From Flavobacterium aquiphilum (GTDB lineage Bacteria; Bacteroidota; Bacteroidia; Flavobacteriales; Flavobacteriaceae), in the NCBI RefSeq assembly GCF_027111335.1, contig NZ_CP114288.1, forward strand, positions 682,001-746,000: a stretch of DNA of 64,000 nt, read 5' to 3'. Both the position numbers and the translations under genes were made by a program. Below the pieces are notes generated by a model. It had not been told where the DNA came from. It saw only the letters and a list, made by a program, of their open reading frames with translations, and made no database searches. Positions 17,781 through 54,953 of the stretch are shown in pieces. Position 1 is the first letter of the stretch; each line of letters begins with the position of its first letter.

Positions 17781-20700
17781 ATGGAAAGACCTTCTTTTGC
17801 CATATATGACGCTTCGGCCGGTTCCGGAAAAACTTATGCACTTGTCAAAGAATATCTCAAAATTATTTTGACGGCAAATAAGAACGATGCTTATCGAAAT
17901 ATATTGGCAATAACTTTTACCAACAAGGCAGTGCACGAAATGAAAAGCCGAATCGTTGGTAGTTTATCCGAATTTGCAAAAGACGAACCTAACTCGAAAG
18001 CTTCAGATTTAATGCAAGATTTGGTAAATGGCAGACGAAGCGAAGTTAATCCAGAAGAATGGGCTGAGGAGCCAATAGGTCTTTCTGTAATTCAAATCAA
18101 AACCAAATCCCAACAAATCATAAAGCATATTATTCATAATTATGCTGCTTTTGATATATCCACTATTGATAAATTCACGCATAAAGTGATTCGTGCTTTT
18201 GCCCATGATTTGGGATTGCCCATGACTTTTGAGGTGACTTTGGATACCGAAAATTTGTTGACAGAATCTGTTGATGCCATCATCGCACAAGCCGGAGAAG
18301 ATGAAACCCTGACAAAATTGCTCATCGATTTCACGATGGAAAAAACCGATGATGATAAATCTTGGGATATTTCGCGAGAGATTTTGGAAACAGGAAAATT
18401 AGTGCTGAATGAAAATAACCGAAATGAAATTGTGCATTTTCACGATAAATCAATAAGTGATTTCATCGCCGTAAAAGAAAAATTGGTTCAGGCTTGCAAA
18501 GATTTAGAAAAGGAGAATGCCGAATGCGCTAATGAATTGTTGCAGTTAATTGATAAAAACGGAGTCGATTTGAAATCCTTTTCGAGAGGTACTTTTCCTA
18601 ATCATCTTCAAGCTATAGCGGATGGGAAATTCAATCCAAAAAACAAAATGTTTCGGGAGTTCGAGGATATTGCTATCAATAAAACGGCAAAAGACCGAGC
18701 GATAATAGAAAACAGTATACCTGAGTTGCTTCAAAGTCTTAGTGGAATTTATAAAAACTTCGAGAAACGAAATTTCTATAAAGCCTTTTTGAAAAACATT
18801 ACACCATTATCGTTGTTGAATACGGTGAGCAACGAATTGGAGAAAATTCAAAACGAACAAAATATCCTTTCAATCTCGGAATTCAATGCGATTATTCATC
18901 GCGAAATTCAAAACCAACCCGCCCCTTTTATATATGAACGATTGGGAGAGCGTTACCGCCATTTTTTTATTGACGAATTTCAGGATACTTCCGAAATGCA
19001 ATGGCAAAATTTGATTCCGCTTATCGACAATGCACTTGCGGGCCAAGATGATTCGGGACAAAAAGGGACGTTGATGATTGTTGGCGATCCAAAACAGTCT
19101 ATTTATCGTTGGCGAGGAGGTAAGGCGGAGCAATTTATTGAGTTGAGTAAAGATCAAAATCCTTTCAGTAATCCTGAAAAAAAGCTAGAACATTTAGACA
19201 AAAATTACAGAAGTTATTCGCAGATAATCGAATTCAATAATGATTTTTTCAAATTGTTGTCTAATGAATTTACTAATCCTGATTACAAAGATTTATATGA
19301 AAATCATAGCCATCAGAAGATAAATAATAAAGTAGGCGGCTATGTGAATATCTCCTTTTTGCCAGAGATAGAATCCTCAGAAGATGATGAAGAAGCTCTT
19401 GATAAAACGGAGCAGTATGTTTTGGCTACATTAAATACTATCCAAAAAGTTCTAAAAGAAGGTTTTGAATATAAAGACATTGTAATTCTGACCCGAAAAA
19501 GAAGTCAGGGAATCGCTGTTGCTAATTATTTGACGGAACAAAAAATTCCGCTCTTGTCTTCGGAAACATTGATGATTAAAAATGCAACCGAAGTTCAATT
19601 GATCATTCATATTTTGAAATATTTGAAGAACAGTTCCGATTTGGAATCAAAGGCGAACTTTTTACAATATTTGGCACAAAACAAACAAAATCAATTGCCG
19701 GTTCATGATTTCATCGCCGAAGGAATGGACTTGAAAGATGAAGTGGCTTTCGAAAAATGGCTTGAAAATTGTAACGTCGAACTTTCTTTCCAAAATATCA
19801 GAAAGAAATCATTGTATGAAGCGGTTGAAATTATTATTTCAAAGTTCCTCCCCCCAACCCCCTCCAAAGGAGGGGGAGTCGAAGATGGAATCGGTTCGAA
19901 TATCGAAAGCGGTCATGTATTAAATTCTAATAAATTAGGATATATGACAGGAGGAAATTTTTCTCATCTTTTGATTGATAAAGCAAAAGAAATGAGAGAT
20001 AATCCAACTAAGGCAGAAAAGATTCTTTGGTCAGAACTTAGGTCAAAAGCTTTAGATGAAAAGTTTCGGCAACAACATCTTATAGGTGATTTTATAGTGG
20101 ATTTTGTTTGTTTGTCAAAAAAGTTAGTGATAGAAGTGGATGGAGGTATTCATGATTTACAGAAAGAATATGATGAACAAAGAACTTTAAGTTTAAATGA
20201 AAAAGGGTTTAAGGTAATTCGATTTACAAATGATGAAGTGATAAGCAGTATTTCGATTGTTTTGAATAAAATAAAAGAAGAATTGGAATTACAAAAAATT
20301 CTTTTAAAAGAAGGTATAGATGATAAAGATATTTTTATAGATAAAGTCTCCCCAAAGTCTCCCTCCCCTTCGGGGAGGGTTGGGGAGGGGACAGCCTATG
20401 TTCAATATTTTTTGGATATTGTTCTTGAGCGCGATGTTCGCAATCAGGCAGGAATTTCAGATTTCCTTAATTATTGGGACAAAAACTCGGAGAAATTCAG
20501 CATTCCTTCTCCCGAAGGGACGAATGCGGTTCGAATAATGACTATTCATAAATCAAAGGGGTTGGAGTTTCCCGTGGTGATAATGCCTTTTGCGGAAGAA
20601 GATTATAATCGAAAACCGAAAGATAAATTGTGGCTCAGTGCCGAAGAAGAGGATTTGGATATGCCAAAGGTGTTAGTGGATAATAGTAGTGCTATTGAAG

Positions 20701-21500
20701 AATTTGGAGAAGAGGCATCGGCAGTTTATAATCTGAAAAAGCAGGAAGAATTACTAGATAATATAAATGTATTGTATGTTGCTTTAACTAGGGCGGAGGA
20801 GCAATTGTATGTTATTTCTCAAAATGTTAAACCGAGAAAAGATGGGGAATATCCGAGTAATATGGCTTCATTTTTTATAAAATATTTGATGCAACAAGGG
20901 CTTTATGAGGAGAATAAATTAGGATATGAATTTGGGAATTCAACAAAGTTATCAGATAAAGAAATACATATTGACACTACCAAAAATATTCCTGTTGTAG
21001 CGGAAATATTGAATCCTAAAAACATAAAAATTGCCCAACGAGAGGCATTGATGTGGGGAACTCATCAACAGGAAGCAATTGAATTTGGTAATGTTATACA
21101 TGAAATACTTTCTTTTATTGCGACAAGAAATGATGTTGAATTAGCAATTGAGAAAGCTGTTGAAAACGGATTGATTACGATACTTCAAAAAGACGTTGTT
21201 TATAATTCCATTAATCAGATAGTAAATCATATGGATTTAGGGGATTATTTTTCAGAAGGAAGTGAAGTTTTGAATGAGAAAACAATTATTCAGAAAGAAG
21301 GAGGTATTGTTAAGCCGGATAGAATGGTAATCAATAAAGCCAATGAAGTTTTTCTGTTGGATTATAAAACAGGTGTTCCAAATCAAAAATATAGTTATCA
21401 GTTGGAAAATTATCAAACAGCCATCGAGAAAATGGGATTCAAAGTGCAAAAAAAAGCACTTGTGTACATAGGAACCGAAATTGATGTGATACATTTGTAA
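17781..21500 (+). CDS. addA: AddA/RecB-like helicase-nuclease with in-frame DUF559 insertion
   Basis: This UvrD-superfamily helicase with a C-terminal RecB-type nuclease probably works with the AddB-like protein (24394-27159) in processing double-strand breaks. Visible motifs are Walker A SAGSGKT (12-18), motif Ia ITFTNKAVHEMKSR, DEFQDTS (about 396-402), VGDPKQSIYRWRGG (about 432-446), motif V TIHKSKGLEFPVV (about 920) and the nuclease core DRMV...LLDYKTG (about 1180-1200). At 1239 residues it is longer than its relatives because about 182 residues (689-870) are a foreign DUF559 cassette between GC-rich hairpins. The host frame is open on both sides, so a full-length fusion can be made. Without the insert it would be about 1057 residues. 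Confidence 0.92.
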   Translation: MERPSFAIYDASAGSGKTYALVKEYLKIILTANKNDAYRNILAITFTNKAVHEMKSRIVGSLSEFAKDEPNSKASDLMQDLVNGRRSEVNPEEWAEEPIGLSVIQIKTKSQQIIKHIIHNYAAFDISTIDKFTHKVIRAFAHDLGLPMTFEVTLDTENLLTESVDAIIAQAGEDETLTKLLIDFTMEKTDDDKSWDISREILETGKLVLNENNRNEIVHFHDKSISDFIAVKEKLVQACKDLEKENAECANELLQLIDKNGVDLKSFSRGTFPNHLQAIADGKFNPKNKMFREFEDIAINKTAKDRAIIENSIPELLQSLSGIYKNFEKRNFYKAFLKNITPLSLLNTVSNELEKIQNEQNILSISEFNAIIHREIQNQPAPFIYERLGERYRHFFIDEFQDTSEMQWQNLIPLIDNALAGQDDSGQKGTLMIVGDPKQSIYRWRGGKAEQFIELSKDQNPFSNPEKKLEHLDKNYRSYSQIIEFNNDFFKLLSNEFTNPDYKDLYENHSHQKINNKVGGYVNISFLPEIESSEDDEEALDKTEQYVLATLNTIQKVLKEGFEYKDIVILTRKRSQGIAVANYLTEQKIPLLSSETLMIKNATEVQLIIHILKYLKNSSDLESKANFLQYLAQNKQNQLPVHDFIAEGMDLKDEVAFEKWLENCNVELSFQNIRKKSLYEAVEIIISKFLPPTPSKGGGVEDGIGSNIESGHVLNSNKLGYMTGGNFSHLLIDKAKEMRDNPTKAEKILWSELRSKALDEKFRQQHLIGDFIVDFVCLSKKLVIEVDGGIHDLQKEYDEQRTLSLNEKGFKVIRFTNDEVISSISIVLNKIKEELELQKILLKEGIDDKDIFIDKVSPKSPSPSGRVGEGTAYVQYFLDIVLERDVRNQAGISDFLNYWDKNSEKFSIPSPEGTNAVRIMTIHKSKGLEFPVVIMPFAEEDYNRKPKDKLWLSAEEEDLDMPKVLVDNSSAIEEFGEEASAVYNLKKQEELLDNINVLYVALTRAEEQLYVISQNVKPRKDGEYPSNMASFFIKYLMQQGLYEENKLGYEFGNSTKLSDKEIHIDTTKNIPVVAEILNPKNIKIAQREALMWGTHQQEAIEFGNVIHEILSFIATRNDVELAIEKAVENGLITILQKDVVYNSINQIVNHMDLGDYFSEGSEVLNEKTIIQKEGGIVKPDRMVINKANEVFLLDYKTGVPNQKYSYQLENYQTAIEKMGFKVQKKALVYIGTEIDVIHL
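19847..20390 (+). mobile_element. DUF559 endonuclease-like cassette with inverted 30-bp hairpin ends
   Basis: The cassette is about 544 bp and interrupts addA in frame. The left end 19847-19876 and right end 20361-20390 are inverted copies of a 30-bp unit: 8-bp GC-rich stem, 3-base loop, 11-base G-rich tail. The interior is AT-rich and encodes a DUF559 domain from a possible ATG at 19944. Its motifs are KAEKILWSELRSK, FRQQHLIGDFIVDFVC and LVIEVDGGIHD, with Asp and ExD placed as in the PD-(D/E)xK/Vsr-like nuclease fold, then GFKVIRFTNDEV. No target duplication is evident. The helicase resumes at AYVQYFLD. A self-mobilising role is inferred from the arrangement only. Confidence 0.7.
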
Positions 21501-54923: not shown

Positions 54924-54953
54924 CCCTTTCCTTTGGAGAGGGTTGGGGTGAGG
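54924..54953 (+). repeat. 30-bp hairpin element between genes
   Basis: Stem CCCTTTCC/GGAGAGGG (one G-T pair), TTT loop and tail TTGGGGTGAGG match the unit around the DUF559 cassette. It lies 20 bases before the TonB receptor start codon, within its leader. Confidence 0.75.

Follow-up and report, generated by a model that had tools for sequence, protein, structure and literature searches.

The 64-kb window (the whole stretch of DNA analysed here) holds an AddA/RecB-like helicase-nuclease gene whose single open frame encloses a DUF559 nuclease domain set between two inverted hairpin units (Table 1). Pfam places UvrD-helicase at residues 11-458 of the 1239-aa product and UvrD_C at residues 471-1013, with the DUF559 match (E 1.2e-33) nested in the latter, and the cassette adds 181 residues between two host anchors. 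This uninterrupted frame confirms the in-frame DUF559 insertion in a helicase gene proposed in the preliminary description of the locus. The name AddA given there to the host holds in part: the protein is a helicase-nuclease of the AddA/RecB kind, but the several NCBIfam AddA/RecB models that match all fall below cut-off, so we label it AddA/RecB-like.

Table 1. Positions, in window coordinates, of the host gene and of the parts of the cassette within it
Feature	Position	Strand	Basis
Host gene, AddA/RecB-like helicase-nuclease, 1239 aa including the insert	17781..21500	+	ORF, Pfam, NCBIfam
In-frame cassette (unit, DUF559, inverted unit), 544 bp	19847..20390	+	repeats; occupied and empty relatives
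Left unit, C-rich arm CCTCCCCCC	19847..19855	+	
Left hairpin, 8-bp stem and 3-nt loop; in-frame reading within PPTPSKGGG	19858..19876	+	
DUF559 (PF04480) nuclease domain, residues 733-836	19977..20288	+	
Right hairpin, 8-bp stem and 3-nt loop; in-frame reading within SPSPSGRVGEG	20361..20379	+	
Right unit, G-rich arm GGGGAGGGG, inverted relative to the left arm	20382..20390	+	

The cassette ends are inverted repeats of 33 nt (19846-19878 and 20359-20391; 79% complementary) and qualify as transposon-type terminal inverted repeats. Each carries a stem-loop with a GC stem, CCCCCTCC-AAA-GGAGGGGG on the left and CCCTCCCC-TTC-GGGGAGGG on the right. The inversion and the 8-bp GC stems described earlier are thus present, while the two units proved similar rather than identical. 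As single-stranded DNA the two ends fold moderately better than shuffled sequences (z -2.0 and -2.3), and the 30-nt units are free of stop codons in all six frames. The pattern CCCTCC-N0-14-GGAGGG matches the window twice, at the two cassette ends, and 100 shuffles gave no match; across the 5.05-Mb genome there are 26 matches, against none for the reversed control. An imperfect further unit, with three mismatches to the left unit, lies at 54924-54948 of the window on the minus strand.

Pfam found no splicing (Hint) domain in the 1239-aa protein (E ≤ 0.001), the ground on which we rejected an intein, and no separate DNA-binding region in the insert; PADLOC returned weak matches only. An AlphaFold model of the AddA segment was poor (pTM 0.35) and was used solely to note that both hairpin-encoded stretches have low confidence.

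Occupancy of the addA site and other host genes

The gene was found in 39 of 40 relatives, and the cassette occupies the addA site in two of 25 same-genus genomes (G000 and G007), the genus being taken as Flavobacterium from how protein hits are named. The other same-genus frames are open and 1047-1103 aa long, contig-cut genomes aside. DUF559 is therefore not a fixed feature of this position, as it would be if all relatives carried it: the cassette is absent from 23 of the 25 same-genus addA genes. At this site G017 and G019 encode just a brief linker, SPNLAKGGG, which looks like a decayed single unit.

Occupancy differs even between sister species. In an AddA tree of host sequence alone, built from 19 of 37 rows after the 18 that lacked an anchor had been dropped, G007 pairs with G010 as its sister (support 99). 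Their DNA aligns with 280 of 300 bases identical on each flank (93%), and between the flanks a 514-nt insert in G007 faces a 16-nt linker in G010, both in frame. The search for an empty site suggested by the preliminary description thus yielded a near-exact one. No target duplication is visible in this one close pair, in which the linker replaces the insert, and the difference may reflect either gain or loss. Over the whole AddA tree the occupancy pattern requires four changes, three of them forced by starred branches, and occupied rows show no clear clustering (as low a count came up in 74 of 500 shuffles). The present analysis revealed no cutting, excision, new insertion or strain-level insertion.

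In-frame insertion of DUF559 recurs in many other genes. Of 249 genomes of the genus 135 have the domain, as do 222 of 395 in the phylum (E ≤ 0.001), and 1496 of 1930 candidates were long DUF559-domain proteins at E ≤ 1e-6. Among the best 120 of these 1496, the hosts are mainly LeuRS, followed by AddA, MetH and IleRS; there are several insertion sites per gene, sometimes two copies per protein, and the inserts are mostly flanked by similar P/G/S peptides. Fetched loci added RecG, and further hosts are HsdR, HsdM, type ISP and Eco57I-type enzymes, methylmalonyl-CoA mutase, PriA, an HrpA-like helicase, MmeI, additional HsdR/HsdM, other methylases and an EPSP synthase-NUDIX fusion. M23 peptidase and N-formylglutamate amidohydrolase carry DUF559 as end fusions. 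HemF, HisF and HsdS are probable hosts named from motifs read by eye, as is part of the IleRS labels. Single host proteins with two cassettes occur at L047 (G016), L074 (G146) and L082 (G153). The in-frame share in our four locus sets gives no unbiased rate, because these were picked for long frames. That so many bacterial genes contain this kind of cassette suggests a mobile element, not previously described, with links to a repeat family.

End units and their association with DUF559

The units of the addA cassette conform to the plan of a triplex motif, in which a hairpin is joined through a short spacer to a third strand that mirrors the purine stem. Over 315 units, which are not independent of one another, stem type and arm type covary, as a triplex would ask, and the spacer is 2 or 3 nt in 229. 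The sequence GTAG/CTAC near the stem is rare among units, and GACG occurs there in 4 of 40 units from the window's genome, 3 of 64 from the genus, 2 of 46 from the phylum and 1 of 140 from the wider set. On the rarity of GACG we rejected identity with CGTC-tagged REPs; the units of G424 (L284-L290) are exceptional in that AGCCTGACG adjoins the stem and 11 of 19 have GACG, an incidence of the CGTC-like tag unmatched elsewhere. Terminator-like hairpins are also unlikely, because many of the hairpins lie inside coding frames and are paired with an inverted copy.

The 26 units of the genome to which the window belongs (below, the home genome) were sorted by eye into three flank types, and a second pattern added six units. 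The flank type around a second DUF559 gene (at 2907030) is not that around the addA cassette. Three solo units of the third flank type (L035, L040 and L044, at 1761443, 2798509 and 4039549) lie inside long frames without DUF559 and are like in-frame palindromic insertions. Pairs of units 300-800 bp apart number two among the 26 of the home genome and two among the 39 of G424, the two genomes whose units were listed in full. All four enclose DUF559, and none holds another cargo gene. Three further pairs at this spacing, in G007, G128 and G460 among the units listed, likewise contain DUF559. A 1053-bp pair in G617 is without it, and in G099 a 757-aa frame (L269:887-3157) has three units in frame and no DUF559. 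The two DUF559 copies of G424 differ in their hairpin loops, and cargo-less pairs in that genome, 127-190 bp apart, have loops matching those of one or the other DUF559 pair.

The association extends beyond a single genome, in keeping with the earlier proposal. Hairpins lie within 330 bp on both sides of 21 of 69 DUF559 copies; at control positions within these loci the figure is 7 of 2129. In a set of named loci that spans many phyla, the 80 best out of 543 confirmed, inverted repeats scoring at least 16 link the flanks of 30 of 80 DUF559 loci and 2 of 573 controls; at a score of at least 20 the counts are 19 of 80 and 1 of 573. In 26 of these 80 loci DUF559 sits within a frame of at least 400 aa. 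Under a strict pattern, 40 of 189 DUF559 copies have units on both sides, and 113 have no unit within 360 bp on either side. The arms point inward in 18 of the 28 symmetric pairs and outward in 10, and 12 pairs are mixed, so there is no single fixed architecture. A stand-alone DUF559 branch (L093-L102) has almost no flanking units and perhaps represents a non-mobile lineage within the family.

Genome-wide counts show the same tie between DUF559 and hairpins, whose absence would have contradicted the preliminary description. Within the genus (388 unit matches, 28 for the control pattern), the 48 genomes with DUF559 at E ≤ 1e-20 average 6.2 units and the 73 without average 1.26 (p 1e-9). Exceptions run both ways: seven genomes without a strong DUF559 match have at least four units, and six of the 48 with one have none. 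Across the phylum, with the second pattern (952 matches, control 5), at least two units occur in 58 of 159 genomes with strong DUF559 and in 18 of 236 without (Mann-Whitney p 6e-15), while G643, G344 and G383 are unit-rich (55, 32 and 16 units) without a strong DUF559 match. Within ten hand-picked families, covering 140 of the 395 genomes, the permutation p was 2e-4; three of the ten (f24, f39 and f47) run against the trend or without it, and family f38, counted apart, gave 8 of 41 against 0 of 4. This co-occurrence is a correlation in which kinship is partly controlled.

Unit number follows DUF559 with rho 0.55 and Y1 transposases with rho 0.17 (p 0.055). Genomes rich in Y1 genes and lacking DUF559 mostly have 0-2 units, and in both DUF559 classes the presence of Y1 genes goes with a slightly higher unit count. 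None of the four Y1 genes of the home genome is flanked by units. With this low rho and these unflanked genes, HUH/RAYT (Y1) transposases are poorly supported as mobilisers of the units.

The nuclease domain

By its fold and its conserved acidic and histidine residues, the cargo is a nuclease of the EDxHD/Vsr kind. Foldseek matched the domain to 3HRL (2.7e-7) and I-Bth0305I (1.7e-4), with Vsr (1cw0) at just 0.044, and the conserved D, E, D and H are present in 168, 168, 167 and 164 of 169 inserted copies. In a model of the nuclease with its spacers (19878-20360) the core is confident; residues 1-23 and 154-160, the spacers that join the core to the hairpins, are low (<50).

Inserted nucleases are under purifying selection even within their hosts, with median domain dN/dS values of 0.11-0.19. 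The medians are 0.136 at the AddA site (9 pairs), 0.116 at the RecG site (20 pairs), 0.158 and 0.113 at MetH sites 1 and 2 (32 and 10 pairs) and 0.193 at LeuRS site 1 (38 pairs), counting only pairs of 60-99% identity with dS below 2.5. In a midpoint-rooted FastTree phylogeny of 188 domains (from 250 rows, less two that were too short and those that were near-identical or gappy), copies cluster mostly by insertion site. Nested within these clusters are jumps between sites. One clade of 69 rows (0.991), six of them without a label under the labelling pattern, consists of LeuRS copies except for a nested group (0.966) in which 16 AddA copies join two LeuRS copies; three MetH site-1 copies fall within a clade otherwise made up of site-2 copies (0.998). 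The site-1 and site-3 copies of the same LeuRS protein are sisters with weak support (0.41).

Origin of the cassette and relation to known systems

We interpret the insert as probably one member of a family of minimal mobile cassettes, each spread by its own nuclease, through homing or transposition, and tolerated in frame. The nuclease would nick or cut DNA; its target would most likely be a unit or sequence close by, or else a host allele that lacks the cassette, and repair would presumably copy the hairpin-ended cassette into the break. Within genes, survival would be restricted to in-frame events in permissive loops, where the units, stop-free here, would read as flexible Pro/Gly/Ser linkers; such readable units would therefore make intron or intein splicing unnecessary. 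Loss of the nuclease would leave solo units or short inverted pairs as dispersed repeats. We infer that DUF559 is the driver of mobility, via homing, transposition or cutting at units, from circumstantial evidence: the cargo-less cognate pairs, the co-occurrence, the conserved residues and the homing-endonuclease fold. The idea of a minimal, hairpin-ended unit that its host tolerates in frame, put forward in the preliminary description, agrees with the stop-free units, the open frames and the near-exact empty site of the sister species.

Much of this could also be due to allelic homing alone, in which the nuclease recognises a conserved host sequence and cuts empty alleles, and recombination copies the cassette, as with intein and intron endonucleases but without splicing; the hairpins would then be tolerated linkers or repair homology. 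Arguing for this are the clustering of domains by insertion site, the scattered occupancy of conserved host genes and a nearest functional fold match that is the catalytic domain of a homing endonuclease. Yet cargo-less inverted pairs with matching loops, intergenic stand-alone copies with the same ends and jumps between unrelated sites would go unexplained, and the short domain comes with no separate DNA-binding region that Pfam could find in the insert, so we regard homing alone as unlikely. Alternatively, triplex-motif units may be mobile or unstable by other means, such as another enzyme or replication and repair errors, with DUF559 hitch-hiking between two of them. Unit-rich genomes without a strong DUF559 match would fit such a passenger, as would the weak positive Y1 trend and the genome instability reported at such units in E. 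coli (PMC4666352). A passenger, however, would hardly be the sole cargo of all four 300-800-bp pairs in the home genome and G424, nor would it be expected to remain under purifying selection even in hosts, and Y1-rich genomes without DUF559 have few units; we consider this quite improbable.

Selection on the nuclease would also be expected if the insert were a useful accessory domain, retained for extra nuclease activity in AddA and other DNA enzymes, its mobility being past or irrelevant. Many hosts do act on DNA (AddA, RecG, PriA, HsdR, HsdM, MmeI and type ISP enzymes among them), but LeuRS, IleRS, MetH and methylmalonyl-CoA mutase are hosts as well, and nearly all same-genus addA genes lack the insert. 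We give this explanation very little credence.

The mobile cassettes that we favour resemble several known systems in part. Triplex motifs (TM, earlier PIT) were described by Holder et al. in 2015 from E. coli and over 260 bacterial genomes, with 23 in E. coli MG1655 and triplex formation demonstrated for one E. coli motif; the authors report no transposase or integrase remnants around them (PMC4666352). They share with our units the GC hairpin, the 2-3 nt spacer, the purine arm mirroring the stem and the inverted pairs, and the E. coli consensus resembles units that flank DUF559 in Proteobacteria; there they are described without mobility genes, whereas the present units bound a nuclease gene, in frame. 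REP/REPIN sequences with RAYTs also comprise short hairpins arranged as inverted pairs, and an autonomous gene lying between two of them is the proposed mobiliser, but that gene is a HUH transposase and the repeats carry a GTAG tag (PMC3733652; see also PMC3116915); the cassettes have a DUF559 nuclease, lack a GTAG tag and lie in frame in their hosts. Homing endonucleases of the EDxHD kind, I-Bth0305I (PDB 3R3P) among them, have a related fold and spread into conserved genes (PMC3943268), while the cassette is without intron or intein, is hairpin-ended and has a short domain with no added DNA-binding region. Rickettsia palindromic elements are palindromic in-frame insertions in unrelated genes, but as described (PMC10969869) they have no nuclease, and their repeat differs from ours. 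Inteins, too, are nuclease-bearing in-frame inserts in conserved enzymes, and are set apart by the splicing domain that Pfam did not find in the cassette. Elsewhere, VsrA, a DUF559 protein of Caulobacter, is reported to be tied to an SOS response (2026; PMC12907096), and recombination is reported in Legionella among segments with a transposase and DUF559 (PMC12308824). Within the part of the literature covered, we found no description of a DUF559-hairpin association or of in-frame endonuclease insertion in LeuRS.

A broader proposal, towards which we are drawn while leaning slightly against it, is that DUF559 cassettes are the autonomous partners of bacterial triplex-motif repeats. They would form a splicing-free class of mobile element in which a Vsr-like nuclease acts on triplex or hairpin ends and is placed in frame inside essential enzymes, and would have left the dispersed repeats, those of E. 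coli among them, as non-autonomous remains. If this is true, the repeats that Holder et al. found without any mobility gene would be supplied with one. The in-frame cassettes show that a nuclease can persist, splicing-free, in conserved and often essential genes, and they explain the stray DUF559 annotations in many aminoacyl-tRNA synthetases, MetH and repair helicases. Laboratory strains of Flavobacterium and ycjD of E. coli K-12 offer a directly testable system.

In E. coli K-12 MG1655 (L292:4206-4761), the DUF559 gene ycjD has motif 9 of the Holder et al. set at a distance of 167 bp, on one side only; the chance that one among 18 loci would fall within 400 bp is about 0.0045, as judged post hoc. 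Over at least 80% of its length the ycjD region is matched in 3330 of 5426 E. coli genomes. The fabI-sapF interval is not a clean empty ycjD site, since the three ycjD-less strains that were opened have efflux genes there. Among other matches to the site, one belongs to a different locus, and in a fourth strain ycjD lies beside an IS.
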